From assembly GCF_027111355.2 (NCBI RefSeq), contig NZ_CP114291.2, forward strand, positions 1 to 64,000: 64,000 nucleotides of DNA, given 5' to 3'. The notes beneath the pieces were generated by a model, which ran no database searches, was not told the DNA's origin, and saw only the letters and a program-made list of their open reading frames with translations. This DNA comes from Flavobacterium eburneipallidum. GTDB lineage: Bacteria > Bacteroidota > Bacteroidia > Flavobacteriales > Flavobacteriaceae. Below are positions 35,266-56,370 of the stretch, piece by piece. Each line of letters opens with the position of its first letter. Position 1 is the stretch's first letter. The translations under genes and the position numbers were made by a program.

Positions 35266-35268
35266 TAA

Positions 35269-35327: not shown

Positions 35328-35345
35328 GAAAACTAATTCAAAATA

Positions 35346-36671: not shown

Positions 36672-36679
36672 TTTGTAAA

Positions 36680-38164: not shown

Positions 38165-38167
38165 ACT

Positions 38168-39311: not shown

Positions 39312-40343
39312 ATGGAAGAAAATAAAGACGTTACGATATACGATATTGCTGAAAAACTAAATCTTGCCACCTCTACCATTTCAAGAGCGTTGAAAGACCA
39401 CCCTACCATAAGCAGTAAAACAATAAAAAAAGTCAAAAAGACAGCCGAAGAAATGGGTTATGTCCCTAATACTTTGGCGGCAGGATTGCGAGGAAACAAA
39501 ACCAATACTATTGGAGTTTTGATACCAACAGTTACCCAACCCTTCCTTTCTTCCTTGATTAGTGGTATTGAAATCACAGCTCAAAAATCAGGATATAATG
39601 TTATTATTATGCAATCTCACGATTCTTATGACGAAGAAGTGAGTATGGCAAAGTCATTATACAGTAGTAGAGTCAGCGGCATAATTTGTTCACTGGCGAT
39701 GGAAACCCGAGATACTTCACATTTTCAACAATTTGTCGCCAACAACATTCCATTGGTTTTTGTGGATCGGGTTCCTAAAGATTTTAATACTTTTCGAGTA
39801 ATTATTGACAATTATTCTGCTGGATACAAAGCCACAACTCATCTAATTGAACAAGGCTGCAAGCGTATTGCTCACATTACTGCTGGATCAGAATTTGGAA
39901 ATTTATACAACGAAAGAAAAAGAGGTTATCTCGATGCCTTAAAAGAAAACAATTTACCTATTGACGAAGAACTAATTGTAAATTTAAAAGCTGTTACTTA
40001 TGAAGAAGGCGTTAGAGCTAGTAATTTACTACTTGATTTAGAGAATCGCCCTGATGGAGTTTTTTCTTCAGGAGATATTATGGCAGTTAGTGCTATTCAG
40101 TCTGCAAAAAAAAGAGGCCTAAAAATCCCAGAAGAACTAGCGGTAATAGGATTTAATAACGATCCTATTTCTCAAATTGTAGATCCAAATTTATCTACTA
40201 TCACGCATCCTGCTGCAAAAATGGGCAAAATGTCGGCTGAAATTATTTTGAAAAACATCAAATCATTAAAAAAAGACGATGTGAAAGAAATCACTTTTTT
40301 GAATACGGAAGTACTGGTTCGGGAATCTTCGAGTAAAATATAG
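39312..40343 (+). CDS. LacI-family transcriptional regulator
   Basis: 343 residues. The N-terminal HTH (VTIYDIAEKLNLATSTISRALKDHPTISSKTIKKV, about 6-40) and hinge helix (NTLAAGLRGNKTN) are typical, followed by the type I periplasmic-binding sensor domain. It lies between the divergent xylose regulator and, convergently, the end of the fasciclin-SusCD unit. It is the best local candidate to control that unit or the symporter; effector unknown. Confidence 0.93.
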   Translation: MEENKDVTIYDIAEKLNLATSTISRALKDHPTISSKTIKKVKKTAEEMGYVPNTLAAGLRGNKTNTIGVLIPTVTQPFLSSLISGIEITAQKSGYNVIIMQSHDSYDEEVSMAKSLYSSRVSGIICSLAMETRDTSHFQQFVANNIPLVFVDRVPKDFNTFRVIIDNYSAGYKATTHLIEQGCKRIAHITAGSEFGNLYNERKRGYLDALKENNLPIDEELIVNLKAVTYEEGVRASNLLLDLENRPDGVFSSGDIMAVSAIQSAKKRGLKIPEELAVIGFNNDPISQIVDPNLSTITHPAAKMGKMSAEIILKNIKSLKKDDVKEITFLNTEVLVRESSSKI

Positions 40344-40382: not shown

Positions 40383-40430
40383 CCAAACAAAAAACTCCTT
40401 GTGTAATATACACAAGGAGTTTTTGTTTGG
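40383..40430. terminator. long bidirectional terminator between LacI and susD
   Basis: CCAAACAAAAAACTCCTTGT (from 40383) pairs along its whole length with ACAAGGAGTTTTTGTTTGG (to 40430) with a single A bulge and a short ATA loop. It serves both the LacI gene and the 15-kb minus-strand SusCD unit. Confidence 0.9.
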
Positions 40431-40448: not shown

Positions 40449-42197
40449 TTACCAAGAAAAAGGCAAATACCAATTATTGACATTCATTAATTTTTCACGT
40501 ACTGAACTTGCTTGGGTGTTTCCTTCTTTACTCAATTTGTCATACACTTTATCTGCTAAAAAGGCTGGATCATTACGACGTAATGCCACACGCACTAAAT
40601 CTTCCCAACGGTTACCTTCATAAGCTAATTCTAAAGCATCTTCTCTGATAATGTTATTTTCTGTAGTAATCATATCATCGCCAATTGCTCCCGCTGCTCT
40701 TAATCTAGCACGACCACGAACACCTGTATTACGGTGCCAATTGGCTCTAAAGTTAGGGAAGTCACCATTTCTAGCATCGAAATCATAAGGGAATGGCAAC
40801 ATCGTTTGTTGTATATTAGTAACATCTGAAGGCACAGGATTTACGTTGTATGCCGATTGTATTCCATTATTCAATATAGCATAAGCTACTTTTTGCTGAT
40901 TGTCTCTGTTAGCTGCTTCGGCATAACGCAAATGTAATTTTGCAGCACGGTACAAAAACCATTGTCCTTTAGTATTAGGTACTCCAGCAGTTGTTGCTAC
41001 AGCCTCACTACTGTATAAATATTTCATAATCACTGGATCTCCATTTACTATATTATAAGAGAATTTCGAACCTCTAGCATCATAAGGAAAGTCATTTGCT
41101 TGTGTTTGACTATTCCACAAATCCATAGCTGATTGTGATGGCTTAACTAAATAAGAACCATTTCTATTCGAAAACAAATTGATGAATGGATTTTTAGGAG
41201 CAAAATTATTATCAAAAGGTAACGACCAAATCCATTCACTATGCCACAATGCATCTCTATCTCTTGCAAAAATAGAACGCCAACCTTGAGTATTATTATT
41301 AACTAAAGTTGTGGCATCTTGTTCAGCATATCTTAAATACCCAACTGCTAAATCTTCGTTAGTAATAACTTCAGCATATTTTACACGGTAGGTATCATAT
41401 AATGCTGTATTATCTCCACCTCTAGTTCCGGTTTCCATTACGTATTTGTAATGATTAGCTGCTTCAAGATAATTCCCTTTCCAAAGATGCAAATCACCTA
41501 ATAAACATTCTTTGTTAATAAAAAATTTACCTGTATTAAAACCATCAACGGTAATTACCATCGAACTGCCCGAAGCATATAAATCTTTGTATGGTAAAGC
41601 ATCAGCAAAGATTATTAATTTATCTAACAATTCATTAAAAGATATTCTAGGATACTTTGAAATATTTTTTACATCTTCTAATGTTTCAATAGGTTCTGTA
41701 ATGTAAGGTACACTTCCGTAATGAATTCCTAATTGTAAATAAACCCATGTACGAATGGCTCCAATATCAGAATAACGCTGATTGTATTGATCTACAGTAA
41801 AACGCTTCTTTTCGAGCATAATATCGAAGTTTTTAAGCACATCATTACAGTTTTGAATCACGGCATAAAACTCTTTTGGGCTAGCATAAGGGTTATTAGC
41901 AGAAACATTGTGTTCTGAAATTTCTTTCAAAAAAGGGCTTGAGTTACGAGTTGTGGTCATCAAGTCAGCACGCATTTCATTAAGAATTACATTTTTTTCT
42001 GCAAGAGCCATAAATTTACCATAAACTCCGAATACGGCTGCATCGGCATCATATACATTTCGATATACTTGCTCTCCAACCAATTTATCTTCTGGCTCCA
42101 CATCAAGAAAATCCGAACAAGAGCTAAAAGTAAAGACTAATGTCATTACTAATAATAAGCTGCTCTTTTTTGTTTTTGTATTAATTGTTGTTATCAT
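40449..42197 (-). CDS. SusD-family outer-membrane glycan-binding lipoprotein (second pair)
   Basis: 582 residues. Signal peptide with lipobox FSSC (Cys27), followed by SDFLDVEPEDKL as in SusD proteins, then TPR-like helices and the RagB/SusD C-terminal region, with REDALELAYEGNRWEDLVRVALRR near 535-560. It caps the SusC barrel and binds oligosaccharide at the cell surface. It is the last gene of the fasciclin-SusCD unit, 28 bases after its SusC partner; a strong terminator follows. The ligand is unknown. Confidence 0.93.
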   Translation of the reverse strand: MITTINTKTKKSSLLLVMTLVFTFSSCSDFLDVEPEDKLVGEQVYRNVYDADAAVFGVYGKFMALAEKNVILNEMRADLMTTTRNSSPFLKEISEHNVSANNPYASPKEFYAVIQNCNDVLKNFDIMLEKKRFTVDQYNQRYSDIGAIRTWVYLQLGIHYGSVPYITEPIETLEDVKNISKYPRISFNELLDKLIIFADALPYKDLYASGSSMVITVDGFNTGKFFINKECLLGDLHLWKGNYLEAANHYKYVMETGTRGGDNTALYDTYRVKYAEVITNEDLAVGYLRYAEQDATTLVNNNTQGWRSIFARDRDALWHSEWIWSLPFDNNFAPKNPFINLFSNRNGSYLVKPSQSAMDLWNSQTQANDFPYDARGSKFSYNIVNGDPVIMKYLYSSEAVATTAGVPNTKGQWFLYRAAKLHLRYAEAANRDNQQKVAYAILNNGIQSAYNVNPVPSDVTNIQQTMLPFPYDFDARNGDFPNFRANWHRNTGVRGRARLRAAGAIGDDMITTENNIIREDALELAYEGNRWEDLVRVALRRNDPAFLADKVYDKLSKEGNTQASSVREKLMNVNNWYLPFSW

Positions 42198-42225
42198 TTG
42201 TATTTTTCTATATTGTGTAAAATAA

Positions 42226-45200
42226 TTAAAGACCTAAACGCAATCCTAACTGAAAAGTTCTAAACTGTGGAGTCAATCCTACATCAGCTCCTTGTCCAAA
42301 TATAGAAGAAGAGCCACTAAATTCAGGATCAAAACCTAAATAATCAGTTAAGGTAAATAAATTATTGGCTGTTGCATAAATTTTAATAGCTTTGATATAA
42401 TTCATTTTTTCTACATTAAAATCATATCCAATTACTAAAGTTTTAAGTCTTAAGTAGGATCCATCTTCAATCCATCTATCAGAGAAACTGGCATTCCCCA
42501 TTGGATCTCCCCAAACTGCTTTAGGCATGTTTGTAATTTGTCCTTCGGCTCTCCAACGATTTTCTACCGCTACACTTTGATTTTCGTAACCACTCATTTT
42601 CTCTAAATTGTAACGTACTCCGTTATACAAATCGTTTCCTATAGAGAAATTGAACAATCCTTGAAGACTAAAACGCTTGTAAGTAAAGTTAGTCGTAAAA
42701 CTTCCCATCAAATCAGGATTTGGATTTCCAATTTCCATACGGTCGTTATCATCAATAACTTTGTCTCCATTTCTGTCTGTAAAACGCATATCTCCACCTT
42801 TGAAAGGAACTAATTCTCCGTTTGTTAAACGTCTAGATAAGCCATCAGCTTGTGCCTCTGTAGTTGTTGAATATACACCATTGGCTTTCAAACCATAAAA
42901 CATGTTAGCATCACTTCCTACAGCTGTTCTGTATGTAGCTCCAGCAAATTGTGTAAAGATTTCACCATTTGGCAATCCTTGTACTTTATTTTTATAATGT
43001 GATAAGTTCACTCCAAAATCAAAAGTAAAATCTGGCGAATTGATTACACGGGCATTCAAAGACAATTCAGCACCAAGAGTTTGCATAGCTCCACTATTAG
43101 AAACTACATAATCAAAACCACTCAAATTTGAAATAGTTTCATACACAATCATATTAGCGGTTTTCTTTCCGTAAACATCCATCGTAAGATTAAGACGCTC
43201 GTTGAACATACCAAAGTCTGCTCCTAGATTAATTTTTTTAACTCTTTCCCATTGTAAATTTGGATTTCCAATATTGCCACGAACTAATCCTTGAACACCT
43301 AATAAGTTTTGAGAAACATAGTATTTTTGAGCAGTAAAATTACCTATATCATCATTTCCGCTTTCACTTAATGTTCCTCTTAATTTTAAGTAATCAAAAG
43401 TTTTAGAATCTTTCATGAAATCTTCTGCAGAAACTAGCCATGCTCCAGTAATAGAAGTCATTAAGGATAATCTATCTTTTCCATTCAATTTATCACCAAA
43501 TCTACTAGATCCATCTACAGCATAACTTGTAGTTAAAAAATATTTATCTCGATAATTATAATTACCACTAGCATAAATATTCAACCATGTCCATTCGCCT
43601 AAAGCTCCACCTACTTGACGTAGCAAATTAGAACCTGCACCAACACTGATAAAATCGTCTGTAGCTGAATTGAATCCTAATCCTAAATCACTTTCTGAAT
43701 GACTTTTTTGAGTTCTAAATCCAAAACGCACGTCTAGTTTGTGATCTTCTTTAAATTTCTTAAAGTAGTTGGCATAAGTATCAGTATAAATACTATTCAT
43801 GATTTGTACTTCGCTACCTGAACGATTCGTTCCTATAGCTGTAGGAAGAATAATATCAGCAACTCCAAGATCCGGAATAAAGAAAGATTCACGCTCTTTG
43901 TTATAAGTTAAACCAAAAAGAGTATTTACATTCCAAGCCTTATTGATTACATATTTAAAATTCATATTTCCGAAGAAACGGTAATTCTTATTTATTCCAA
44001 TTCCGTTATCCAAGATAGCTCTTGGATTACTGATATTAAAATCATCAGTATCGGCTAAATTAGGCGATACATTACCTAGTGCATCAAAAGCATTTGAAGC
44101 CAAAAATGGTGCTTTAGTTAAAGCCAAATACAGCGGACTAGTTTTGTATGCAAACCCTTGATCTCTTTGGTCTTGAAGATTATTGATAAATGACATATTA
44201 GCATCTACAGAAAGTTTATTGGTCAAACGCAAAGCAGCATTCAAACGAGTACTGTAACGTGTAGATTGACTACCCTCAATAATTCCTTCGTTATTAAGAT
44301 AACCAACAGATAAACCATACTTTGCAATTTCATCACCTCCACGAACTTTAAGGAAATAATTTTGACTTATACTAGATTTGAATACTTTATCTTGCCAATT
44401 GGTTTGGTTATGATACCTGTAATATCCTGAATAAGCAGGATTGTCAATCATATAAGGTAGATTACCAATTTGATCTTGCGTAAGACCACGAGTGGTTTCT
44501 AATTGTGAAATATGAGTTCGGTAGGCATCAGCCTCCATAACAGGTAATTGCTCTGGAGTTTGATTGGCACTTCCGTACATTGTAAAATCAATTTTAGTTG
44601 TAACTTCGGTAGCGCGAGTAGTGTTGATAATAAGAACACCATTAGCACCTTTAGTTCCATAAAGAGCGCTATCGTCTTTGAGAACTGTAATGTTTTCAAT
44701 ATCTTTTACATCTAAATTCTCTAGCGGAGAAGAGCTATTATTTTGAATAATTCCTGAACCATAATCTTCATCATCATAGATCATTCCATCTACAATAATC
44801 AAAGGTTTATTTGATCCGTAAAGTGAAGTAAAACCTCGTAAATTTAAGTAGGCTCCAGAACCAGGAACACCTGATCTTCTGATACTATTTAGTCCAGCAA
44901 CTCTACCTTGAAGAAAGTCTCCTACTGATTCTTTGATAGGACTAGACCATTGATTGGTTTTGAAGTTGACTACATTTACAGCTTTAGTTGTTCCGTATTG
45001 CATTTCTTGTCCATTTGGCAAATTTCCAACTTGGTAAGTAGGGGCATAATACGCTTCATACAAGAAAATTTCTAAACTTGAATCTCTATTTTTTAGAGGA
45101 TACACTTTGGTTTGAAATTCTTGACCACCCACAGTGAGCAGCGACTCTAAATGAGGAACATTGATTTCAAAGGTTCCATCATCTTTAGTAATTGAAGCAG

Positions 45201-45414
45201 AAAAATCTTTAACAACCACATTTATTCCTGATAATACTTTTTTGGTTTTTGCGTCTTTAACAATCCCTTTAACTACAATCCCTTTTTTAATTTTTGGAGC
45301 TGTAGTAATTACGGTTGATGTTGAATCCTGCTCGGTTTGAGCGTACACTTGTACACTAAAGCTTCCTGCTAAAAAGATGCTCATCGCACAGGTTAGTTGT
45401 AAATTTTTTAACAT
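42226..45414 (-). CDS. SusC-type TonB-dependent outer-membrane transporter (second pair)
   Basis: 1062 residues. Signal peptide (about 1-25, VYAQ), an N-terminal CarboxypepD-regulatory-like domain (about 45-115: VVKGIVKDAKTKKVLSGINVVVKD), plug domain with LNLRGFTSLYGSNKPLIIVDGM (near 190-215) and KDDSALYGTKGANGVLIINT, then a 22-strand barrel to the C-terminus (FRTFQLGLRLGL). The N-terminal extension of 40 residues before the regulatory domain is Thr/Ser rich. The TonB box is not clear. It pairs with the SusD at 40449. Confidence 0.93.
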   Translation of the reverse strand: MLKNLQLTCAMSIFLAGSFSVQVYAQTEQDSTSTVITTAPKIKKGIVVKGIVKDAKTKKVLSGINVVVKDFSASITKDDGTFEINVPHLESLLTVGGQEFQTKVYPLKNRDSSLEIFLYEAYYAPTYQVGNLPNGQEMQYGTTKAVNVVNFKTNQWSSPIKESVGDFLQGRVAGLNSIRRSGVPGSGAYLNLRGFTSLYGSNKPLIIVDGMIYDDEDYGSGIIQNNSSSPLENLDVKDIENITVLKDDSALYGTKGANGVLIINTTRATEVTTKIDFTMYGSANQTPEQLPVMEADAYRTHISQLETTRGLTQDQIGNLPYMIDNPAYSGYYRYHNQTNWQDKVFKSSISQNYFLKVRGGDEIAKYGLSVGYLNNEGIIEGSQSTRYSTRLNAALRLTNKLSVDANMSFINNLQDQRDQGFAYKTSPLYLALTKAPFLASNAFDALGNVSPNLADTDDFNISNPRAILDNGIGINKNYRFFGNMNFKYVINKAWNVNTLFGLTYNKERESFFIPDLGVADIILPTAIGTNRSGSEVQIMNSIYTDTYANYFKKFKEDHKLDVRFGFRTQKSHSESDLGLGFNSATDDFISVGAGSNLLRQVGGALGEWTWLNIYASGNYNYRDKYFLTTSYAVDGSSRFGDKLNGKDRLSLMTSITGAWLVSAEDFMKDSKTFDYLKLRGTLSESGNDDIGNFTAQKYYVSQNLLGVQGLVRGNIGNPNLQWERVKKINLGADFGMFNERLNLTMDVYGKKTANMIVYETISNLSGFDYVVSNSGAMQTLGAELSLNARVINSPDFTFDFGVNLSHYKNKVQGLPNGEIFTQFAGATYRTAVGSDANMFYGLKANGVYSTTTEAQADGLSRRLTNGELVPFKGGDMRFTDRNGDKVIDDNDRMEIGNPNPDLMGSFTTNFTYKRFSLQGLFNFSIGNDLYNGVRYNLEKMSGYENQSVAVENRWRAEGQITNMPKAVWGDPMGNASFSDRWIEDGSYLRLKTLVIGYDFNVEKMNYIKAIKIYATANNLFTLTDYLGFDPEFSGSSSIFGQGADVGLTPQFRTFQLGLRLGL

Positions 45415-45432
45415 ATCTATTTTTATAAAATA

Positions 45433-46905
45433 TTATTTAACGACAGGAACAAATTTTAAATAATCTAGGGTAAGGGAATTGTTACCAATTGTTGAAGATG
45501 CTGCTGCAACCAAAGAAATTCTATTGATATCTCCTGCTTGCGGCAAAGTAAATTCACCTATGTAAACTTCATCATAAAATCTTAAATCTACATTTGTATA
45601 GGGTAAAGCCATAAGAGAAGTGGTCAAATCAATAGTACCATCTAGCTTAAAAGCAGTTCCTATTACTAAACGTTGGCTGATAACATTAGCTTGAGAATCG
45701 TTAATAGCTCTCCAATACACTTTATAAGTTGTACTATACATATTAGATGCCGTATAATTGATAAAGAAATTAGGTCCTTCTGTTACTCTATGATATTGAT
45801 AAATATCATTAAAAACAACCCCTGAAGGGTCTTTCTTATCTCGGTAAAAAATAGTAGCTCTATTTCCACCCGTAGAAGGAAAATAGGAAAGGTTTTTCTC
45901 ACCTTCAATTTTTGTAGTTACCAATCGTTTTTCTAATGGTACATCTACTTTTTTCATGATGTAAACAATTCCGTTACTCAAAACAATAGGTTCTCCTACG
46001 ATTTGAGTCTTGTCAATTGGCACTTCAACACCAAAACGAGTTGTCAAAACTGCTGGTAATTCATTAGGCAAATACGCTTTAGGAAAAACCATATCTCTTG
46101 TCGTAAAATATCTAGAATAAGTATCGGTTCTATCTGCACTATTTTTTGTCAAATACGGCTTTAGTTTTGTTACTTCATCGTTATATCCAGCATCCTCCAT
46201 TAAGAATAAAGTGTATGAATTTTTTTCATTGTTCAAATTATACACATTTCTTAAATAAGAATTGGTCAAAGAATCTGAATAAATACCTGGAACTGGATTA
46301 ATTTTTCCAATACTATCAGCTGGATAAATATTCAATTCTGTTAAGCTTACTAAATACTGACTCATTGCAGAGCTAGAAGCCATCCCTTTTACGTACTGCC
46401 AAATATTTTGTTTTGGTGTTAATGCTTTGCTCACAATGTGAAAAACACCATTAGCGGCGTATTTATCCGCCGATGCAATTGTTACATCACCTATTAAAGC
46501 CGTTCCATTAAATAATAAATACTTGTTATTAAGCATTTTAATTTTTTCTGAAGCTTTATCTCTTACTGAAGAATAAGCCGTAAGTGCAATATGGTTTTGC
46601 ACAAAAGCCGTAACCTCTTCTGGTGTATCAAGAACTGAAGCGTCAACTTGATCCATTGCTTGATTTGTTGGAGCAAAGACAGTATAGGTTTTAGATTCGG
46701 ACAAAATTTTGTCATAACCCGATTGGACTAACAAACTAGCAAACTTGGAAGTTTCAGTAGTATTGGCAATAGCTTCACTCAAACTAAGATTTAGATTGTC
46801 GTCGCCATTGTTTTCGCGCTCTGACCATGGGTCAGAACACGAAACTAATGCTATTGTCAGAATACCAACAAAAAGTTTTTTATTAATTAATTTTAATGCG
46901 ATCAT
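45433..46905 (-). CDS. fasciclin-domain surface lipoprotein with C-terminal beta domain
   Basis: 490 residues. Lipobox ALVSC (Cys23). First fasciclin (FAS1) domain at about 42-170 (KFASLLVQSGYDKILSES, TYTVFAPTNQAMDQV, NGVFHIVSKAL). A second, more divergent one spans about 170-340 (NSYTLFLMEDAGYNDEV, then SNGIVYIMKKVDVPLEKR). The final 145 residues look like a beta-sandwich ending LTLDYLKFVPVVK, as in carbohydrate-binding-like modules; that is inference. Encoded 18 bases before the second susC. A probable surface ligand-binding subunit. Confidence 0.8.
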   Translation of the reverse strand: MIALKLINKKLFVGILTIALVSCSDPWSERENNGDDNLNLSLSEAIANTTETSKFASLLVQSGYDKILSESKTYTVFAPTNQAMDQVDASVLDTPEEVTAFVQNHIALTAYSSVRDKASEKIKMLNNKYLLFNGTALIGDVTIASADKYAANGVFHIVSKALTPKQNIWQYVKGMASSSAMSQYLVSLTELNIYPADSIGKINPVPGIYSDSLTNSYLRNVYNLNNEKNSYTLFLMEDAGYNDEVTKLKPYLTKNSADRTDTYSRYFTTRDMVFPKAYLPNELPAVLTTRFGVEVPIDKTQIVGEPIVLSNGIVYIMKKVDVPLEKRLVTTKIEGEKNLSYFPSTGGNRATIFYRDKKDPSGVVFNDIYQYHRVTEGPNFFINYTASNMYSTTYKVYWRAINDSQANVISQRLVIGTAFKLDGTIDLTTSLMALPYTNVDLRFYDEVYIGEFTLPQAGDINRISLVAAASSTIGNNSLTLDYLKFVPVVK

Positions 46906-46959
46906 TTTTAGGTGATTAAGTTTTTTTTATTAGAATGCTTTTTGATTTAAGGATGAAAA

Positions 46960-48675
46960 TTATGGCACAAAACCTTCTCCACCTGATTGTAATCTTGGAT
47001 ACAACTGATCCATATCAATAGGGCGGAATTCTACAGTATCCATCCAAGCTGTATCTCCAGGATTAGAAAGAGATTCAAAAGAGATAGTATGCCTTCCTGT
47101 AGTTGGCACATCAATAATACCGCAAAGTCTTGCGTTAAACCTGTTAGTAAATGGTGCAATATGACTTTTGTAACCTTGAGATTCTAACACTCTTTCGTTA
47201 ATAGAGTTTGTGCCTTGCTCTTGAAAGTTAATCAATCTTGGCAATGCTACCCCATTAAAATATGCTCTGACCGTTGGGTTTTTAGTCCCTTTCCATCTGT
47301 AAGACACCCATACTTTATATTTACCTTTAATGATTACTGGTGTTTTAAAAGCTAAATTTTGTGTATTTCCGTTTCTAAAACGGAATATCTCAATAATATC
47401 TCCATTCCAAGCACGGTCTTGATAACTTGAACTTCCTTTGGTAGCACAAACATAAGTCAAAGCATCGTTACCATCCCAAGTAACATCTTTGAATTGAGCT
47501 TTAGGAAGTGATGCGTATTGACCTGGCTTTCTAAAAACAGCACTCAATTGTCTGAATTCTGGTTGATCTCCAAGGTCAAAATAAACAGGTGCCGGTACTC
47601 TCTTTTTGATAAAGAAGTTGGTATCAACTCCATGAATTACACCGTTTGAAGCCACAGCATCACTTGCTGCACGGTTTACTAGAATACCTGGCTCTAAAAC
47701 TCCATTGAAGGTTTCTTCATTTAATAAAATATTTCCTGTTGCTAATTTTACACTAATTACTTCTAGTGGCGCTTTAGTTTCTAAAGATGAAGAAACAGCC
47801 AAATCAGCTAAAAATTGAAGTCTTGGTAAAATACGGTAACTTACAAAAAGATTCAAACTATCTGCAGGATTCAAAGGATCGTTTAAGTGGCTGTATTTTG
47901 CTTTCAAATCAGCAAGGCTATTAAAACCAGCGGCTTTAAACACCTCATCCGTTTGGGCTAACACTGTTAAATGTCCACTTTTAGTAACTGTTGTGGTAGT
48001 AGTTCCATTTGAAGTTGTTGTAGTTGTAGTAGAAATTAAAGGTTGATTTAATTTATCATACCAACCTGTAGCTTTTAAGGCTTCAGTAAACAATGAAAAT
48101 GTTTGATCCGCTTCGATAGTTTGTGCTAATGTCTTGTCGGCTACACGCAATACTTTATCAATTTGATGTATCACACCATTTCCTACTTCAACATTGGAAG
48201 CAGTAATTAAAGCTGTTTTATTAACCGTAATACTTGAAACACCATCAACATTCGCAGCACCAGTAATTATAAACTGTCCTTGTTGGCTAGGTGTTGCTAT
48301 TTTACCATCTGTAAAAGAGGTTGTAGGTACTTCTTGATCTAATATATGTAGTTTTACTAATTCTTTTAAATCCTCTAAAGGAACATCTTTTAAAGATGCT
48401 GCACCTACATCGGCTAAATACTTTTTAACTGCCTCATTATCTGGTAAAAACAAAGTATAAGTACCATAAGTATTCATGAATGATGCGTAGTTAGTAATTT
48501 CTAACATTTCTAAAAACATAGAATAGTCATCATTTTGTCTCAAAAAATCAGTAATATTTACTGTTTCGTCAGTTCGTTCGTAAATCTTTTCCGAAGTACA
48601 ATTAAGAAATGCTAGGGTTAAAACAACCACTAAACTAAGTCTCATCAATCTAGGTAACATAAGAAATCTTTTCAT
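46960..48675 (-). CDS. fasciclin-domain surface lipoprotein with Thr-rich insert and C-terminal beta domain
   Basis: 571 residues. Lipobox AFLNC (Cys26). FAS1 domain 1 at about 45-185 (TYTLFLPDNEAVKKYL, GNGVIHQIDKVLRV) and domain 2 at about 188-355 (LTVLAQTDEVFKAAGF, SNGVIHGVDTNFFI). Domain 2 contains a Thr-rich low-complexity insert near residue 215-230. The last 200 residues form a beta-rich module (RPAYFNG-like KNPTVRAYFNGVALPRLINF; RHTISFESLSNPGDTAWMDTVEFRP), resembling a CBM-type jelly roll (DUF5108-like). Follows the first SusD gene by 15 bases. Confidence 0.8.
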   Translation of the reverse strand: MKRFLMLPRLMRLSLVVVLTLAFLNCTSEKIYERTDETVNITDFLRQNDDYSMFLEMLEITNYASFMNTYGTYTLFLPDNEAVKKYLADVGAASLKDVPLEDLKELVKLHILDQEVPTTSFTDGKIATPSQQGQFIITGAANVDGVSSITVNKTALITASNVEVGNGVIHQIDKVLRVADKTLAQTIEADQTFSLFTEALKATGWYDKLNQPLISTTTTTTSNGTTTTTVTKSGHLTVLAQTDEVFKAAGFNSLADLKAKYSHLNDPLNPADSLNLFVSYRILPRLQFLADLAVSSSLETKAPLEVISVKLATGNILLNEETFNGVLEPGILVNRAASDAVASNGVIHGVDTNFFIKKRVPAPVYFDLGDQPEFRQLSAVFRKPGQYASLPKAQFKDVTWDGNDALTYVCATKGSSSYQDRAWNGDIIEIFRFRNGNTQNLAFKTPVIIKGKYKVWVSYRWKGTKNPTVRAYFNGVALPRLINFQEQGTNSINERVLESQGYKSHIAPFTNRFNARLCGIIDVPTTGRHTISFESLSNPGDTAWMDTVEFRPIDMDQLYPRLQSGGEGFVP

Positions 48676-48690
48676 GACTTTAGTATTTAA

Positions 48691-50211
48691 TTATTTATAA
48701 AATGGATTTTGAACAAGTGCTTTATTCGTATATAATTCATATATATTGATTGGCAAGTAATGGCTATTTGGATCTTGCAATTTAGCTAAAATGGATTGCT
48801 GCTGATCAGCAGGAGCACTAATCAAAGCCATAGCTCTCAAAAGATCTAACCGCTCATAATTATTTCTTCTTGCGTTTCTTAACACATCATACCAACGTTT
48901 TCCTTCGAAAGCAAATTCACGAGCACGCTCTGCCAAAAGATAATCAGTCATCTCTGATTTATTATCTGGATTAACTATTTGAGTAGTTGCTGCGATAGCT
49001 TTACGTTTCAATCTTAAATCTTCAATAATAGGCAATGCTTCGGCTCCACGACCTAACTGGATTAAGGCTTCGGCTTTCAATAGCAATACATCTGAATATC
49101 TGTAAACAAACCAGTGTGTATCACATTCTTGTAATGCTTTACGGTCGTTATTATTAAGTCCAGTATATTTATATATCTCATTACTCCCTGCTATCAATGC
49201 GCATCTTTCACCACGAACGTCTCTATTGTTTGCATCCGCAAAATCAACTCCAAATACATCTTCTAAAACTGTTGGTGCAGCAACAAATTCTGGTCTTCCA
49301 TTTGCAAAAAACATATCGTAAAATGGGTTCAAATTTTGAGGGTTATATTGAAATTCAAAAATACCCTCTGATGAATTTCCTACAGCGAAAACTCTGTTAA
49401 ACCAGCTGTTATTTCCTTCAATCAATGCAAATTTACCTGAATTTTCTACTTTGGTCGCTGCTGCAAGTGCTGCTTCATAATTGTCCATCCATAGATAAAC
49501 ATCGGCTTGCATAGCGTTAATGGTGTAAACAGTAATTCTTCCTTTATTTGATGCGTTATTTCCGTAATCCTCTACTGCATATTCTTCTGCCAAAGTAAGA
49601 TCTTTAATTACTTGTGCAAAAACTTCACTTTGTGGTGTTTTGGCCAACTGAAAATTATCCAAATCTGAAAGAGTAGCATTCAATTTAAGTGGTACATCTT
49701 TAAAAGTACGAGCTAATGTAAAATACATGTAAGCTCTGATTGCTAAAACTTCAGACAAGTAATTATTCAACTGTGTTCTTGTCAAGGTAGGATCACTATC
49801 CAATACTGCAGGTGCTAAATCAATAACTGTATTACAGTAATTGATTGTACGATAAAATGCAGACCAACTAGTCAAATCGTTTGATGGTAAAATATTTGAG
49901 GTAGTAATATCTCTTTGTTCTTGAGTTATATTCCCTCCAGGAAAGATCATATCGGCTCTAAGTTCTCCAAACATGAATAAATACTCACTGATGTTATAGT
50001 CAGTTCCATCTGTAGGCACTTGGGCTCCTGGTGGTCTTTTTAGCAAAGAAGAATAAGTCCCCATAACGGCGGCTTGAATATCTTCTTTGGTTTTCCAAAA
50101 TTCTTCTCTTACGATTCCATCTTCTGGTCGTAAATCCAAATAACTGTCACACGAAACAACGCTGATAACAATTAGTAGGAAGGCTAGTATAGCTTTTATT
50201 TTAGTTTGCAT
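48691..50211 (-). CDS. SusD-family outer-membrane glycan-binding lipoprotein (first pair)
   Basis: 506 residues. Lipobox SVVSC (Cys21), then DSYLDLRPEDGIVREEFW, TPR-like helical N-terminal region (LRADMIFPGGN) and the SusD/RagB C-terminal domain with ERAREFAFEGKRWYDVLRNARR near residue 430. Different in length and detail from the other SusD in this unit, so the two pairs probably bind different ligands or parts of one ligand. 17 bases after its SusC partner. Confidence 0.93.
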   Translation of the reverse strand: MQTKIKAILAFLLIVISVVSCDSYLDLRPEDGIVREEFWKTKEDIQAAVMGTYSSLLKRPPGAQVPTDGTDYNISEYLFMFGELRADMIFPGGNITQEQRDITTSNILPSNDLTSWSAFYRTINYCNTVIDLAPAVLDSDPTLTRTQLNNYLSEVLAIRAYMYFTLARTFKDVPLKLNATLSDLDNFQLAKTPQSEVFAQVIKDLTLAEEYAVEDYGNNASNKGRITVYTINAMQADVYLWMDNYEAALAAATKVENSGKFALIEGNNSWFNRVFAVGNSSEGIFEFQYNPQNLNPFYDMFFANGRPEFVAAPTVLEDVFGVDFADANNRDVRGERCALIAGSNEIYKYTGLNNNDRKALQECDTHWFVYRYSDVLLLKAEALIQLGRGAEALPIIEDLRLKRKAIAATTQIVNPDNKSEMTDYLLAERAREFAFEGKRWYDVLRNARRNNYERLDLLRAMALISAPADQQQSILAKLQDPNSHYLPINIYELYTNKALVQNPFYK

Positions 50212-50228
50212 AAAATCAATTTTTATAT

Positions 50229-53200
50229 TTAGAAACGTGTTACAAGACCTATTGATACACGGCTGGTTGGAGGAGTTCTTGAGTTGTCAATTGCCATTCC
50301 GAAAACACCACCTGACATATTAACTTCTGGATCTTGACCTCTATAGTTTGTCCATGTGTATAAGTTATCAGCGGTGATGTAAGTTCTTATTTCATCCATT
50401 TTTAAAGCTTTTAGTAATTTTTTACTTAAAGTATAACTAAATGTAATAGAACGAAGACGAACAAATGAAGCATCTTCTACATAGCGATCAGATCCTAACC
50501 AGTTGTATCCTGCACCGAATATACCTCTAGGCATATTAGTTACATCTCCTGGATTACGCCATCTGGATAAAGTAGCAGTACTTTGATTTGCATATCCAGA
50601 CATGTTGGTTGTGTACATATCTGTTCCATTAACTAAATCATAGTTCAAACGATAGTTAAAGAAAAGCAATAACCTAAATTGATTATTAAAGGTAATGGTT
50701 GGACCAAATCCTCCTGTTAGTTTTGGGTTACTATTCCCTAAATACACTACATCACGACTATCTATGTTACCATCTTTATTAATATCCTCATAGATTGCGT
50801 CTCCAGGTTGAAAAACATAATCTGTATTAGGAAAATTAAAACGCATGTAAACTGTTTGTCCATTTGGACCAGTTATAACATTTCCGTTACCATCTCTAGC
50901 TAAAGTTGCGTCTTTATCAACATAAACACCTTTGAAACGGTATCCGTAGAAAGATCCAAAAGGGTTGTCTTTTTGAAGGAAACGTTTGTACTGTCCATTT
51001 ACATCTGTATTACCTTCCTCATTTTTAAAAAATGGTGAAATTTCACGAATCATATTTTCATTGCTCGCCATATTAAAGTTGAAATCTACTTTCCACTTAT
51101 CTGTTTTTACAGGTGTTGTATTAAGAGCAATTTCCCATCCTTGATTTTCCATTGTACCCGCATTTTGATCTAACTTACTATATCCTGAAACTGTGGTTAT
51201 ATCAAGATTATTGAAAATCAAATCTTTAGTAGTATTTTGATAGACATCGATATCTAAACTAACGCGTTTTTTAAACAATTGAAGGTTGAAACCTAAATTT
51301 TTCCCTATTAATGTTTCCCAACGGAAGTTACTTAATTGAATATTTTGAGGATATACTCCATTTAGACCTAAATATTCAGTACCTGAATTAGCATAAACGT
51401 TGAAGAAACGGTAATCTGACCTTGGTGCTCTTCCTGATTGACCATAACTAAATCTGAAACTTAAGTCATCAATAAAAGTCAATTTCTTCATAAAAGGCTC
51501 CCCTGAAACCCTCCATCTACCTCCTGCAGAAGGGAAAAGTCCGTATCTGTTTTCTTGACCAAATCTTGAGTTTCCATCAGCACGCAAACCAACATTAACG
51601 ATATAACGATCTAATAATCCATATTGTGCATTCAATAAACTACCTACAGTTCTGGTTTGACTACTATTGGTGTATAAATTCAATCCTGCATTTTGAGTTC
51701 TAGAAGGATTCGATGGATCAGTCAGCAACGAAGATGCTGTATTTGAGGTGATAACTTGATGAGACTCATAACGAGAATCATTTGATTGTAAAGACAAAAG
51801 TACGGATAAATCATGTTTTTCACCTAAATCTGGTGTGAAAATAAAATTGGTTTTAGTAGTTATATTAGCCTGATCTACATCTACATCCGAAGCACGATTT
51901 ACTACTGTTTCAGTAATTGGACGACCTGTTGCGTTTTGTGGTAAGAAAGACTTGGCTTTTGTACTGTTAAAATCAAACAACAAATCAAATGTTGAGATCA
52001 ATCTTTTTGGAATAATTTGCACATTCAAATTAAAGTGAGGAACAATTCTATTACCTACTTGGTTATTAGTTGCAAATTCAGCCATGGCTACAGGATTATA
52101 TGTCCCTGGATATCCACCTTGAATATTTTGAGCTGGCGAGAAATAATTAGGAGTAAGTACTCCGGCTGCGTCAAATTCAAAAATACCCATATTAGGCATT
52201 TTACCATAAGAAACTGCTCTCAATAAATCTCTATCATTACCTGAAAAGTTATTTACATAATTACGATCTGTACTTGAGAAAGTATAAGCTATATCGGTTC
52301 TGAATTTAATACGGTCAGAAACTTCATAATCAAGATTCAAACGAGCACTTACACGCTCAAAACCAGTTCCAATTGTAACCCCTTTAGAGTTATAATACCC
52401 TACAGAAGTATAGTAACGAGCTCTTTGTCCACCACCTTGTAATGACAAGGTATGATCTCCAATTAAACCTACTTGAGAAATCGCTTTAGTCCAATCTGTA
52501 TTATTGCTATAGTTTTTATAGAAATATACTTCTTGTGGATCGTATGAAAACTCTTTTACGAACAATGTATTCAAAGGAACACCATTTCTGTTCATAAATA
52601 TTTCTGGTATCAAAGAGGAGTACTGATCCCCGTTAAGCATTGGAATTGGGTCTGGAATTTTAGAATAAGTACCTACAAAAGTATATCCAATTTTTGGTGC
52701 ACTAACTCCTCCACGCTTGGTATTGATAATAATTACACCTCCTGCTGCTGCAGAACCCCACAAAGCGGTTGCTGAAGCATCTTTATCAATAGTAATGGTT
52801 TCAATATCCGAAGGAGCAATGTTTAACAAAGCCGCATACCCCTCGTCGTCTGCAGTACCAAAATTAAAATCGGCTGGAATAGATGTTTCATAAGGCATAC
52901 CATCTACAACAATCAATGGAGTTGAAGTACCAGAAATAGAAGACGCTCCTCTAATTCTAATTTGCATTCCAGCTCCTGGATCACCACTTGAAGCGATGAT
53001 ATCAACACCTGCAATACGTCCTTGCAATTGTTCATCAATAGAAGCTGCTTGTGAATTAGCTAAATCAGCTGCTTTAATAGTCACCGAACTAGTCGTTTTA
53101 TTTCTATCAGCAATATTTAGCAATCCATTTTCTACTCTTTTTTGACCTGTAATCTCAACAGCTTTCAAAGATTCGATAGTAGATACTAAAGCAATTTTAA

Positions 53201-53510
53201 TATTAGTTTTACCATTAATAGCTACTACTTTGGATTTGTATCCAATGGTTGAAATTAATAATTTATTGTTTGGATTTTTTATCTGTATTGCAAAATTTCC
53301 ATCTGCATCAGACATTACGCCTCCAACGGTACGGTTTTCAGCATCCTGTTCTACAACCGTTGCTGCTGGTATAGGCAAATTATCACCTGAATCGACAACC
53401 TGACCACGTACTATAGTGCCTTTTGCTGCTTGAGCAAAAGAGGGTAGCGCTGCCAAGAAAATTAAGGCAAATGAAAAACAGTAAAGTAAATTGTTTATTT
53501 TTTGTTTCAT
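50229..53510 (-). CDS. SusC-type TonB-dependent outer-membrane transporter (first pair)
   Basis: 1093 residues from the ATG at 53510, one base after the upstream fasciclin stop; an in-frame start 10 codons earlier lacks a signal peptide N-region. Signal peptide to about residue 27 (PSFAQAA), CarboxypepD-regulatory-like domain (about 33-115, RGQVVDSGDNLPIPAATVVEQD), plug domain with QLQGRIAGVDIIASSGDPGAGMQIRIRGASS, then the barrel, ending SRVSIGLVTRF. It imports oligosaccharides with TonB energy, in partnership with the SusD at 48691. Confidence 0.94.
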   Translation of the reverse strand: MKQKINNLLYCFSFALIFLAALPSFAQAAKGTIVRGQVVDSGDNLPIPAATVVEQDAENRTVGGVMSDADGNFAIQIKNPNNKLLISTIGYKSKVVAINGKTNIKIALVSTIESLKAVEITGQKRVENGLLNIADRNKTTSSVTIKAADLANSQAASIDEQLQGRIAGVDIIASSGDPGAGMQIRIRGASSISGTSTPLIVVDGMPYETSIPADFNFGTADDEGYAALLNIAPSDIETITIDKDASATALWGSAAAGGVIIINTKRGGVSAPKIGYTFVGTYSKIPDPIPMLNGDQYSSLIPEIFMNRNGVPLNTLFVKEFSYDPQEVYFYKNYSNNTDWTKAISQVGLIGDHTLSLQGGGQRARYYTSVGYYNSKGVTIGTGFERVSARLNLDYEVSDRIKFRTDIAYTFSSTDRNYVNNFSGNDRDLLRAVSYGKMPNMGIFEFDAAGVLTPNYFSPAQNIQGGYPGTYNPVAMAEFATNNQVGNRIVPHFNLNVQIIPKRLISTFDLLFDFNSTKAKSFLPQNATGRPITETVVNRASDVDVDQANITTKTNFIFTPDLGEKHDLSVLLSLQSNDSRYESHQVITSNTASSLLTDPSNPSRTQNAGLNLYTNSSQTRTVGSLLNAQYGLLDRYIVNVGLRADGNSRFGQENRYGLFPSAGGRWRVSGEPFMKKLTFIDDLSFRFSYGQSGRAPRSDYRFFNVYANSGTEYLGLNGVYPQNIQLSNFRWETLIGKNLGFNLQLFKKRVSLDIDVYQNTTKDLIFNNLDITTVSGYSKLDQNAGTMENQGWEIALNTTPVKTDKWKVDFNFNMASNENMIREISPFFKNEEGNTDVNGQYKRFLQKDNPFGSFYGYRFKGVYVDKDATLARDGNGNVITGPNGQTVYMRFNFPNTDYVFQPGDAIYEDINKDGNIDSRDVVYLGNSNPKLTGGFGPTITFNNQFRLLLFFNYRLNYDLVNGTDMYTTNMSGYANQSTATLSRWRNPGDVTNMPRGIFGAGYNWLGSDRYVEDASFVRLRSITFSYTLSKKLLKALKMDEIRTYITADNLYTWTNYRGQDPEVNMSGGVFGMAIDNSRTPPTSRVSIGLVTRF

Positions 53511-53511
53511 T

Positions 53512-55752
53512 TTATTCCGTATATAAAAGATAATTATCAACTAAATGGATCAAGGTTCTGTCTGCAAGATTATTACTTTGAGCAGGGATAAAGTTTGCCG
53601 ATTTTTTGGCCGCATCAATAAAAGTCAGTACACCTTTATCACTTAAAACACCTACATATGTTTTTTCATCACGACTACTTTTTCTTAATGTCTCTATCTG
53701 ACCTCCTAAAAGACCATCATCCGAAACCGTTTTAGTAACTAAAATATGGTAACGAATAAAATCCGCAACTAAATCTTGTTCTCCTAAAGTAGCTGGGGTA
53801 AAATTTGGCACACCTGTAGTACGATTTCCTGGCAAAACTCCATCTTTGACAGCCTGAACTATAGCAGCATTATTTGGTACTACAAACGTGTAAGAAGTTC
53901 CAAGATCAACTCCTGTTATCTTGTCTCCTGTAGCAGTGAAAATGTTAGAATTTTTCAAATAACTGTAGAAATTAAAAAATTGAGAGCCAGCTGGTGCTGC
54001 TAGATTCTTAAGATCTACCCCTGGCGACTCTTCACTAAATTCAAGCAATTTATCAATATAATAAGTACGACCGTTTTGTTGATCTTCAAAACCAAGAATA
54101 TTAACCGTATTACCTAAAACTTCATTACCTGCAGCAAATACTTTATTATTGCTCCATTTAATATATTCACCAGGTAAATCTAAATCTCCAGTACGAATGA
54201 TTCCTGATCCTGATAAATCATTCAACTCATTTTCTGGTGTAGGGACGATACAATTGTATAAAACGCGTAATAAACGTAATCTAGCATTAGCTCCAGAAAT
54301 AGCTGCCCCATTTACTGGTGATGTATAATTCCATTCTGATCGAGCAACATTATAATCGTATCCAAGACCACGTAATACTTGATCTGATGGAAGAAATAAA
54401 GTATATTTATTATTAATATTACTTATAATTTCTCTATAAGAAGAACCATCGTTAAACAATCGAGTAGCCAAAGTGAATTTTGGATCTAAATAAGCTGAAG
54501 TATAGACACTATAAAACAAGTTAGATGCTTGTACTTTATTCGTTCCATAGAAAAATCCATTACTCAATACTTTAGCTTCTTTTACATCGGTTGCTAAATT
54601 AAATCTTAAATCTTCATCTAATCCATTGTTAAAAGAAATTAATTTAGAAGGCCAAACGGCACCAATTACCATGTGTGCTTTAAATAAATCCTGATAAACG
54701 TATTTTGGTAGTGTTTCTAGAGTAAAGTGTTTTAATAAAACTTCATTGATAAATTTTTGTAAAGAAGCATTATCAGGAGCAAACATAGTGTAAGCATCAC
54801 TTTGCCCATCATTATCGGCTTGTTTTAAGAAATTCTCGTTATTTGGAGAAAAAGGCAAGGTAGCGTCATAATATTTAATAAATACCCTATCTGTTTTACC
54901 TGTAAAATTACGATACACATCTGTTGCTGCCTGAAGAAATTGATAATTAACCAAATTCTTTTGAAGCAATTCATTAAACAAACTATATTCAGTACTCACT
55001 TTTAAATGTTCATCAATACTTGGTAACGGAAGTGAAACTTGGCTCACTTCTTGAATAATTCCATTTTCGGCAACTATATTCGCTTCTTTTATAGATCCTT
55101 CAAATAAATTAAAATCAGTAAAAGTTGAATTTGGGTAGAAAAAATTATAATCACTCGCATTCAATGCTTGAGCTGCAAAATATTCTTTTTCAAAATAAGA
55201 TAAATACTTATTATTATTGTCTGTAGTAATGTTTGAAGCACTAACTCCCCATGAATAGCCTCCATTTCTATTTGAATCTAGAAATACAATAGAAGTCCCA
55301 TCAACTGTTACATTTTGAAATCCAACATAATAAGCAGTTCTCCTTCTAAAAGCTTGATCAACAACCCAGCCAGTGCCTGATTGATAATCTGAAAGCTGCT
55401 CGGTACGGAAAGCGTTATACACAAGAGCGTATTTTACAATTTTAGATGCAGTGATAGAATCTACCTTTGTAACATCAGAAATTCCTTTCTCTTGAAAAAA
55501 CTTGGTAAATGCCTCGTCATTTGGAGCAAACATTGTCCAATAACCTGCTTTACTCAAAATGTCTTTGTAACCTGCTTTAGTAATTAATGCTGTCAGGTTT
55601 TTGAAATTACCACGCTCTTCCAATTGTTGGTAAATTGGATCTTCCAGATAACCTGGTCTTGCATAGTAATCATCAAACACGTCTTGGCTACAACTGGCTA
55701 AAAGAGCCAGAAATGGTAGGACAAATAAATAGTAGTGAATTTTTTTCTTCAT
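53512..55752 (-). CDS. large four-domain fasciclin surface lipoprotein
   Basis: 746 residues. Lipobox LLASC (Cys21). Four FAS1-like domains can be read: about 40-250 (YWTMFAPNDEAFTKFF, NGIIQEVSQVSLP), 255-420 (AYTMFAPDNASLQKFI), 420-590 (NKYTLFLPSDQVLRGL, RTYYIDKLLEF) and 600-745 (SYTFVVPNNAAIVQAV, DRTLIHLVDNYLLYTE). FAS1 domains mediate surface adhesion and ligand binding. First gene of the seven-gene unit, and separated from susC by one base, so it is tightly coupled to the transporter. The exact role is unknown. Confidence 0.82.
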   Translation of the reverse strand: MKKKIHYYLFVLPFLALLASCSQDVFDDYYARPGYLEDPIYQQLEERGNFKNLTALITKAGYKDILSKAGYWTMFAPNDEAFTKFFQEKGISDVTKVDSITASKIVKYALVYNAFRTEQLSDYQSGTGWVVDQAFRRRTAYYVGFQNVTVDGTSIVFLDSNRNGGYSWGVSASNITTDNNNKYLSYFEKEYFAAQALNASDYNFFYPNSTFTDFNLFEGSIKEANIVAENGIIQEVSQVSLPLPSIDEHLKVSTEYSLFNELLQKNLVNYQFLQAATDVYRNFTGKTDRVFIKYYDATLPFSPNNENFLKQADNDGQSDAYTMFAPDNASLQKFINEVLLKHFTLETLPKYVYQDLFKAHMVIGAVWPSKLISFNNGLDEDLRFNLATDVKEAKVLSNGFFYGTNKVQASNLFYSVYTSAYLDPKFTLATRLFNDGSSYREIISNINNKYTLFLPSDQVLRGLGYDYNVARSEWNYTSPVNGAAISGANARLRLLRVLYNCIVPTPENELNDLSGSGIIRTGDLDLPGEYIKWSNNKVFAAGNEVLGNTVNILGFEDQQNGRTYYIDKLLEFSEESPGVDLKNLAAPAGSQFFNFYSYLKNSNIFTATGDKITGVDLGTSYTFVVPNNAAIVQAVKDGVLPGNRTTGVPNFTPATLGEQDLVADFIRYHILVTKTVSDDGLLGGQIETLRKSSRDEKTYVGVLSDKGVLTFIDAAKKSANFIPAQSNNLADRTLIHLVDNYLLYTE

Positions 55753-55826: not shown

Positions 55827-55871
55827 CAAATTTATGGGATAGTTATACTACCTCTATCCTGCTGTATCCTG
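55827..55871 (-). promoter_or_regulatory. likely promoter of the fasciclin-SusCD unit with tandem operator repeats
   Basis: TAAATTTG on the minus strand (55834-55827) matches the -7 consensus, 75 bases before the ATG. The -33 region lacks TTTG but holds two direct copies of CAGGATA (55871-55865 and 55861-55855) spaced ten bases apart, one helical turn. The arrangement suggests an activator-dependent promoter. Confidence 0.45.
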
Positions 55872-56118: not shown

Positions 56119-56150
56119 TAAAAAAAACCGCCTCTAGTTCAGAGACGGTT
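56119..56150 (-). terminator. minus-strand terminator
   Basis: AACCGCCTCT (56126-56135) pairs with AGAGACGGTT (56141-56150) with one mismatch and a 5-base loop, followed on the minus strand by seven T. Which transcript it ends is unclear; the symporter gene at 56451 already has its own terminator. Confidence 0.65.
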
Positions 56151-56190
56151 CCTTTTAGACGACAACTCTTGTTTGTATATAACATGCTGA

Positions 56191-56370
56191 AAATGGTCTA
56201 ACTCTGTTTGGGCAAAAGCCAAAATAATCGGTAACAAAGTCGAAGTTTGGAATGAAAAAATCAACAATTATACGGTAGTTCTTTATGCTTGGGACAATAA
56301 TCCAGCGGCTGCTAATTTGTTTTCAAAAGACGGATTGCCAGTTACTCCTTTTGAGGTTAAAAAGAAATAA
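56191..56370 (+). pseudogene. C-terminal remnant of a sialate O-acetylesterase
   Basis: After an in-frame TGA at 56188 a 59-codon frame reads to a TAA at 56368. Its sequence WAKAKIIGNKVEVWNEKINN, then VVLYAWDNNPAAANLFSKDGLPVTPF, matches the conserved C-terminus of sialate O-acetylesterases (SASA family, typically ending YAW..NP..ANLYN.EGLPA.PF). No start codon and no catalytic SGNH domain are present. The fragment lies on the plus strand between two minus-strand genes and just before a strong terminator. A decayed carbohydrate esterase gene is the likely explanation. Confidence 0.75.

Follow-up and report, generated by a model that had tools for sequence, protein, structure and literature searches.

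The window analysed here comprises the first 64 kb of the single-contig genome of Flavobacterium eburneipallidum (3,845,436 bases). It carries, on the minus strand at 40449-55752, a unit of seven open reading frames (ORFs) in the order FASC-SusC2-SusD2-FASB-FASA-SusC1-SusD1, in which two SusC/SusD transporter pairs are interleaved with three fasciclin-domain (FAS1) proteins. From our genomic analyses we conclude, with a probability of about 0.72, that this block is a stand-alone outer-membrane capture-and-import module for pectin, most likely rhamnogalacturonan I. In the best reading of the data it would provide transport and binding within a pectin regulon that is dispersed over the genome, and it probably stands alone in the window because its enzymes lie elsewhere in the genome. 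The computed evidence consists of gene order, selection, a common control site, pectin-related neighbours in several relatives and the co-occurrence of the block with polysaccharide lyase family 11 (PL11).

The seven-gene unit

An earlier note on this DNA had described seven minus-strand genes in fasciclin/SusC/SusD order, with three FAS1 lipoproteins and no enzyme. Pfam and NCBIfam (TIGR04056) searches confirmed this description with the same coordinates (Table 1). Pfam Fasciclin (PF02469) matched three of the seven ORFs with 65.2, 89.2 and 84.4 bits (cut-off 22), SusD domains were found in two ORFs and plug/TonB domains in the remaining two. An adjacent SusC/SusD pair, as expected of a polysaccharide utilization locus (PUL), is thus present twice in the block. 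Its intergenic gaps measure 17, 15, 54, 18 and 28 bases. FASC and SusC2 are 1 base apart if an internal ATG is taken as the SusC2 start; from the called TTG, the two genes overlap by 29 bases. According to Pfam, none of the seven proteins is a carbohydrate-active enzyme, a sulfatase, SusE/F, a hybrid two-component system (HTCS) regulator or a sigma/anti-sigma factor. The degradative enzymes typical of a PUL are absent inside the window block, an esterase remnant nearby aside, and no HTCS gene lies beside it.

The cysteine of the lipobox, assigned by eye, is invariant in the alignments of FASC (Cys21, 17 rows), FASB (Cys26, 13 rows) and FASA (Cys23, 17 rows), from which all three are predicted to be lipoproteins encoded together with SusCD. 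FASC has two FAS1 stretches at the Pfam cut-off and three at a relaxed threshold, and FAS1 makes up only part of the length of FASA and FASB. The C-terminal part of FASB (~210 aa) matched no family above cut-off (DUF5108 was sub-threshold, E 0.0046) and no PDB entry, and that of FASA (~165 aa) had no Pfam match and a best PDB match of E 1.1; the two parts did not match each other significantly. Both are more variable than the rest of their proteins, with mean pairwise identities of 0.52 versus 0.69 in FASB (78 pairs) and 0.52 versus 0.65 in FASA (136 pairs). Judging from their sequence pattern, our guess is that they might be carbohydrate-binding beta-sandwiches. SusD2 matched the SusD homolog 9sje (3.6e-22) and NanU (4l7t, 8e-22) in the PDB, and SusD1 had no PDB match at E <= 0.001.

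Conservation of the unit

FASB orthologs (E <= 1e-30) were detected in 21 of 398 Flavobacterium genomes, the window's own included, which yielded 22 loci. The complete seven-gene order is present in 20 of these; the others are a locus at a contig end (G031) and one G332 locus with a lone FASB. In a second set drawn from named genomes, which shares species with the genus set, 37 of 43 loci contain the intact seven-ORF block, and its distribution extends to Leeuwenhoekiella, Aestuariibaculum, Tamlana, Salegentibacter, Paraflavitalea, Segetibacter and Mucilaginibacter. Among the species with the block is F. pectinovorum (L109). Contig ends interrupt the blocks of L131 and L139, L121 and L122 are lone FASB genes, and in L138 (Odoribacteraceae) the FASA position is taken by another FAS1 protein of 564 aa. 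These counts bear out the tight coupling of FAS1 to tandem SusCD that the earlier note had proposed: as far as the block is concerned, FAS1 is not a rare neighbour of SusCD in relatives. All seven genes are under purifying selection (omega 0.03-0.25, five locus pairs), and the evolutionary distances of the block genes correlate with those of FASB (0.78-0.92, 20 loci).

FAS1 is best known from adhesion and matrix contexts. The FAS1 lipoproteins could therefore be adhesins to plant or algal surfaces to which the SusCD genes are merely linked, and, as far as the available text of the report goes, a FAS1 gene of a mussel symbiont has been read as an adhesin (PMC10199937). The fixed interleaving with two SusCD pairs across the named loci, the short gaps, the correlated distances and the pectin-linked control site described below make this very improbable.

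Two kinds of departure from the intact unit were also seen. In Leeuwenhoekiella parthenopeia (L106) SusC2 is broken into two ORFs. Lone FASB genes without the block's SusCD occur in F. palustre (L121), G332 (L085/L086) and F. fluvii (L122), surrounded by HTCS, PL4-, GH2-, GH28-, GH106-like or SASA genes; the G332 copy is set among GH2, HTCS and SASA genes.

A control site shared with pectin clusters

Comparison of the DNA upstream of FASC revealed a direct repeat, CAGGATAnnnCAGGATA, followed by TAnnTTTG, which we take to be the Bacteroidetes -7 element. The position of the repeat, immediately in front of the promoter, fits an activator site. All 20 Flavobacterium blocks with FASC have the repeat, exact or with one mismatch, and TAnnTTTG at exactly +20. 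In the named genomes, 30 of 40 loci have the repeat with at most three mismatches and the element at +20. Four Aestuariibaculum loci (L108, L110, L116 and L134) have the repeat with one mismatch but TTAATTTG, Segetibacter L137 has two mismatches and lacks the element, and Salegentibacter L120 has four mismatches together with the element. Mononucleotide shuffles of the upstream DNA came within two mismatches in 2 of 1000 cases and never closer.

Within the window, copies of the repeat with <=2 mismatches are confined to the block promoter and a single place in SusC2. The whole genome has 28 such places versus 9 for a reversed control, and many of those with two mismatches are probably due to chance. 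Three copies are exact: one at the block, one at a SusCD pair at 0.91 Mb surrounded by genes for pectinesterase, GH28, GH127 and GDSL proteins, and one at an operon for a 791-aa protein and SASA at 2.82 Mb, which adjoins PL11. Two copies have one mismatch, before a 1000-aa secreted protein (1.61 Mb) and before the rhamnose operon (2.76 Mb). When repeat and element were required together (<=1 mismatch), the genome gave eight matches and the reversed pattern none. The eight are the block, six promoters of pectin clusters (two of them of SusCD pairs) and one promoter of a secreted protein of unassigned family. Those of the eight not yet named precede PL11 and rhaM-GH2-PKD-GH88 (2.81 Mb) and the two sides of a divergent SusCD / GH106-GH88 pair at 1.81 Mb; the rhamnose operon and a PL9-type gene (2.52 Mb, repeat with two mismatches) have the repeat without TAnnTTTG at +20. 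Enzymes and transporter of this genome have in their sequence a common repeat-plus-promoter site, which may reflect the shared control that is expected of a PUL.

We extended this comparison to the 21 block-bearing genomes, of which G031 is 90% complete, and to 27 congeneric genomes that lack the block, namely the members of G001-G060 with a size of >=3.5 Mb and a completeness of >=98%. The former gave 255 matches to the combined site versus 13 controls, the latter 83 versus 19, with 39 of the 83 in five genomes that have PL11. In nine block-bearing genomes in which the matches were mapped, at least 69 of 108, counting markers among the matches listed, lie within 20 kb of PL11, GH28, GH88 or the block, nine of them being the block promoters themselves, where 8.7 were expected.

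The search for a regulator gave one rejected candidate. An HTCS gene is divergent from FASC in G189 and lies beside the lone FASB in G332 and L121. Its ortholog (>=56% identity) is present in 12 of 21 block-bearing genomes (partial, with stops, in G031) and in none of nine block-lacking genomes searched. As the general regulator of the repeat it is unlikely, for nine block-bearing genomes, all with the site, have none at >=55% identity. A 1121-aa neighbour in G201 is a histidine kinase without the helix-turn-helix (HTH) end. In the window genome, an HTCS at 1684481-1688122 is 78% identical to that beside the lone FASB of G332 and lies ~14 kb from PL11; it is perhaps a second rhamnogalacturonan regulator. 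The 1000-aa secreted protein (1605864-1608866) had been considered as a pectate lyase, and this was rejected: its sole Pfam matches are Laminin_G_3, fn3 and a sorting tail, and it is counted here as unassigned.

Pectin genes beside the block and in block-bearing genomes

Several relatives have genes for pectin degradation around the same block. Upstream of the block in Leeuwenhoekiella blandensis, KduI, UxaC and tagaturonate reductase were recognised above the NCBIfam cut-off, and KduD-like, KDG-kinase-like and galactarate/altronate-dehydratase-like genes below it, together with a GH88-like gene (29% in BLAST), GH28 and, identified by eye, TRAP-like genes. A 334-aa gene is also present there, the Leeuwenhoekiella nanhaiensis counterpart of which matches DUF4861. 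Next to the block of Salegentibacter, Pfam recognised PL11 and a GDSL esterase, and BLAST recognised GH28-like and GH88-like genes; a rhamnulokinase-like gene is present there too. That of Aestuariibaculum M13 has GH106, pectinesterase and GDSL esterase (Pfam) and GH28-like genes (BLAST). Segetibacter has RhaT (above cut-off), rhamnose-isomerase-like and GH88-like neighbours, Paraflavitalea has a GDSL esterase, a rhamnulokinase-like gene and, by BLAST, GH106-like and GH88-like genes, and G460, from the phylum-wide sample, has PL4-, GH28- and GH88-like genes (BLAST). Within Flavobacterium, a 1204-aa PL11 lies immediately upstream of FASC in G243, and PL4, PL22, GH106 and one PL11 are near the block in G273. 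A set of GH88, sulfatase, GH28 and DUF4450 genes is present, whole or in part, in G051, G005, G359, G380 and G430 (by Pfam for the G430 copies), with PL11 at 23-27 kb from FASB.

The co-occurrence data point in the same direction. PL11 (PF21348) is encoded in 21 of 21 block-bearing versus 5 of 27 block-lacking genomes (Fisher p 3e-9) and GH28 in 21 of 21 versus 11 of 27 (p 6e-6), p values that overstate independence because kinship is ignored. GH88 is present in all 38 block-locus genomes searched, a set of block-bearing genomes only, from which that of L121 was excluded. The window genome itself has six PL11 matches as well as RhaT, an Aldolase_II-SDR fusion, an FGGY kinase and rhaM, and thus encodes both rhamnogalacturonan lyase and rhamnose catabolism.

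These results support, as the best reading, the dedicated capture-and-import system that the earlier note had suggested, and two of its other claims find no support. One is that FAS1 proteins replace enzymes: pectin enzymes surround the block in several relatives, and those of the window genome lie elsewhere behind the same control site. The other is a xylose/galactose-containing glycan, since the site is not found at the xylose and galactose modules of the window and the extended loci read from other genera show rhamnose or galacturonate genes.

Two side observations concern this gene content. In the window genome, a region of ~80 kb devoted to pectin/rhamnogalacturonan (2742000-2826000; L239, L240, L168, L140 and L141) contains rhamnose genes, a pectinesterase, SusCD, a GH78-type rhamnosidase and PL11, as well as genes resembling GH28, GH35, GH88 and sulfatases. 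In Aestuariibaculum marinum (L134:1463-2635), a DUF4998-DUF5013 gene lies immediately upstream of FASC, and its product is a candidate for a further binding protein.

Substrate alternatives

Several observations weigh against the assignment to rhamnogalacturonan. Many Flavobacterium loci (e.g. G105, G151, G321 and G335) have no recognised pectin gene in the ~12 kb read on each side, where part of the flanking ORFs was scanned. Of the 22 Flavobacterium loci, 7 have xylA and xylB beside the block, in three different arrangements, an adjacency that the pectin reading explains at best in part. GH10 is associated with the block as well (19 of 21 block-bearing versus 10 of 27 block-lacking genomes, Fisher p 2.5e-4, again ignoring kinship), which points towards xylose. 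L112, L132, L136 and L138 have no recognisable site before FASC (best 6 mismatches). The site, finally, marks pectin genes in general across the genus and is also present in the five PL11-bearing genomes without the block, so that it cannot separate rhamnogalacturonan I from homogalacturonan.

The xylAB adjacency and the GH10 association would fit import of a xylose-containing glycan, either xylan or pectic xylogalacturonan, with the xylose set free within the cell and used by the adjoining xylAB. Xylan had first been favoured from the GH10 and GH67 genes of G178 and from xylAB: in G178, GH3, GH67, two GH10, GH43 and SASA genes lie beside FASC. Beyond them, however, follows another GH10-like gene with SusD-like and SusC-like ORFs of its own (the latter truncated by the end of the stretch), and this separate SusCD set spoke against xylan, which was also set back by the pectin neighbours in other genera and the pectin-linked control site of the block. 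No copy of the site (<=2 mismatches) was found at the xyl operon or the SSF-galT-galK genes of the window, the extended loci of other genera have rhamnose or galacturonate genes instead of xylose genes, and PL11 is associated more strongly with the block than GH10. We therefore regard a xylose-containing substrate as improbable. Xylogalacturonan would itself still count as pectin, and could possibly reconcile the xylAB adjacency with the pectin reading.

A closer alternative is that the block serves homogalacturonan or pectin in general. The galacturonate pathway, GH88 and GH28 of the Leeuwenhoekiella loci would fit this, as would the repeat before the PL9-type gene of the window genome and the pectinesterase within the 0.91-Mb cluster. 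Against it, the combined site or the repeat is common to PL11, rhaM and GH106, the repeat is present at the rhamnose operon, and PL11 adjoins FASC in G243 and occurs in every block-bearing genome. We consider this alternative unlikely, though less so than a xylose-containing substrate, and retain rhamnogalacturonan I as the most likely substrate.

Proposed mechanism and relation to known systems

On the simplest account, pectin degradation products would induce the block, together with enzymes at several loci, through one activator protein acting at the repeat. Extracellular lyases and hydrolases would then free rhamnogalacturonan oligosaccharides, and SusC1D1 and SusC2D2 would carry these across the outer membrane using TonB. 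FASA, FASB and FASC, presumably lipid-anchored at the cell surface, would concentrate or present the oligosaccharides in the manner of surface glycan-binding proteins. Their FAS1 domains may serve for scaffolding or contact, and glycan binding would most likely fall to the C-terminal regions of FASA and FASB. The enzymes that supply the transporters, pectin lyases, hydrolases and esterases, would be encoded at other loci, many behind the same direct repeat.

Tandem SusCD pairs are also a feature of the Xus-type xylan systems, in which we know of no interleaving with FAS1. The proposed role resembles that of SusE and SusF, likewise SusCD-linked lipoproteins proposed to hold glycans at the surface. 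FASA, FASB and FASC differ from these in being FAS1-based, with C-terminal parts of no known family in FASA and FASB, and no Pfam match to the SusE/SusF sequence family was obtained for any of the seven proteins. Pectin PULs have been described in Gramella flava (PMC5306329) and in Bacteroides xylanisolvens (PULs 49 and 50; PMC4769552), and the available text of both reports presents them, like the block, as SusCD transporters linked to pectin enzymes. The G. flava PUL also links SusCD to galacturonate catabolism, and the Leeuwenhoekiella neighbours resemble its kduI-kduD-uxaC-kdgK-uxaB-uxaA set (PMC5306329, as far as available). Unlike these known pectin PULs, the block has tandem SusCD interleaved with three FAS1 lipoproteins in a fixed order, and in the window genome the enzymes lie away from the transporters; the word fasciclin is absent from the main texts of PMC5306329 and PMC4769552. 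Closer in one respect is a PUL of Gramella portivictoriae, also of the Flavobacteriaceae, for which the available text lists a FAS1 protein with SusD-like proteins (PMC4891872). That PUL differs in its cellulase/hemicellulase families (GH5, GH9), and that text describes no fixed seven-gene unit. A review of FAS1, in its available part, covers plant FAS1 proteins and pectin (PMC6032426). Among the open-access papers listed in our searches we recognised no description of the seven-gene unit; most subscription papers and PULDB lie outside that scope, within which the arrangement may be new.

SusCD loci without enzymes are hard to assign. The promoter site links the block to a chromosome-wide pectin regulon, and such a regulon-based assignment provides a testable substrate and a route to the enzyme partners. 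If the FAS1 lipoproteins do bind pectin, a domain of adhesion and matrix proteins would become a glycan-capture module in one major group of degraders of plant polymers, and the C-terminal parts would offer new binding domains for structure determination.

FAS1 beside SusCD in the wider phylum

FAS1 was detected in 18 of 46 Bacteroidota genomes sampled phylum-wide, the window genome included; in this sample, SusC and SusD were recognised solely by profiles built from the block. By our count, 14 of the 46 FAS1 genes belong to five block copies or close versions (that of G455 without FASA). Four more adjoin other SusCD pairs, outside the seven-gene unit (L181, L182 and L183 in G455; L201 in G483), and L198 is doubtful. 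Among the 32 FAS1 genes outside the block, 27 are not near SusCD, and most of these are shorter than 330 aa. The linkage of FAS1 with SusCD thus recurs and is yet concentrated in the seven-gene unit, and the pairs outside the unit suggest FAS1 as a wider kind of accessory protein. A bolder interpretation, which we put forward tentatively as possible rather than probable, is that FAS1 lipoproteins might form a general, unrecognised class of surface glycan-binding proteins in Bacteroidota, with a FAS1 stalk and exchangeable glycan-binding C-terminal domains of new fold. The unit would then be an ancient tandem rhamnogalacturonan machine in which FAS1 proteins bridge the two SusCD complexes.

Features of the window and flanking genes

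Table 1. Coordinates and assignments of the features in and around the seven-gene unit.
Feature	Coordinates	Strand	Assignment
FASC	53512..55752	-	746-aa multi-FAS1 lipoprotein, first gene of the unit; Pfam Fasciclin 9.5e-24
SusC2	50229..53510	-	SusC/RagA TonB-dependent outer-membrane transporter; TIGR04056 677.5 bits; Pfam plug + barrel
SusD2	48691..50211	-	SusD-type lipoprotein, partner of SusC2; Pfam SusD_RagB 5.3e-26
FASB	46960..48675	-	571-aa lipoprotein, two FAS1 stretches + C-terminal ~210 aa; Pfam Fasciclin 3.2e-25
FASA	45433..46905	-	490-aa lipoprotein, N-terminal FAS1 + C-terminal ~165 aa; Pfam Fasciclin 8.3e-18
SusC1	42226..45414	-	second SusC/RagA transporter; NCBIfam TIGR04056 (OMP_RagA_SusC) 618 bits
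SusD1	40449..42197	-	second SusD-type lipoprotein; Pfam SusD_RagB 1.5e-10, SusD-like_3 7e-8
Direct-repeat control site	55855..55871	-	CAGGATACAGCAGGATA before FASC; shared with pectin-cluster promoters
TAnnTTTG promoter element	55827..55834	-	20 nt downstream of the repeat; from upstream-DNA comparison
Terminator-like stem	40390..40424	-	after SusD1; 16-bp stem, then T-rich tail
Terminator-like stem	56119..56157	-	5' of the promoter, between the unit and the SSF-galT-galK side; stem scan
Second terminator-like stem	56393-56429		stem scan
Esterase remnant	56203..56370	+	truncated SASA-type carbohydrate esterase, nonfunctional; between block and SSF-galT-galK

Terminator-like stems in the region are no commoner than in shuffles (8 versus a mean of 8.2). 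A xylose operon at 33472-39169 (GntR, xylB, xylA, SSF) and a divergent LacI gene at 39312-40343 lie on the SusD1 side, and in G178 the same xylose set is located downstream of the block. The GH3 gene beside FASC in G178 is broken into two ORFs (L090:7917-10154), and a small SASA-like fragment lies between this gene and FASC. The esterase remnant of the window showed no match to plasmid records at the DNA level. Over 52 aa it shares 50% identity with a SASA protein in G178, at residues 590-641, which lie behind the SASA domain of that protein, and a second fragment match (64% over 25 aa) is located ~600 bases upstream of FASC in G178. The remnant is consistent with the trace of a lost former neighbour gene and, as it lies just upstream, the site of the block may once have carried an enzyme.

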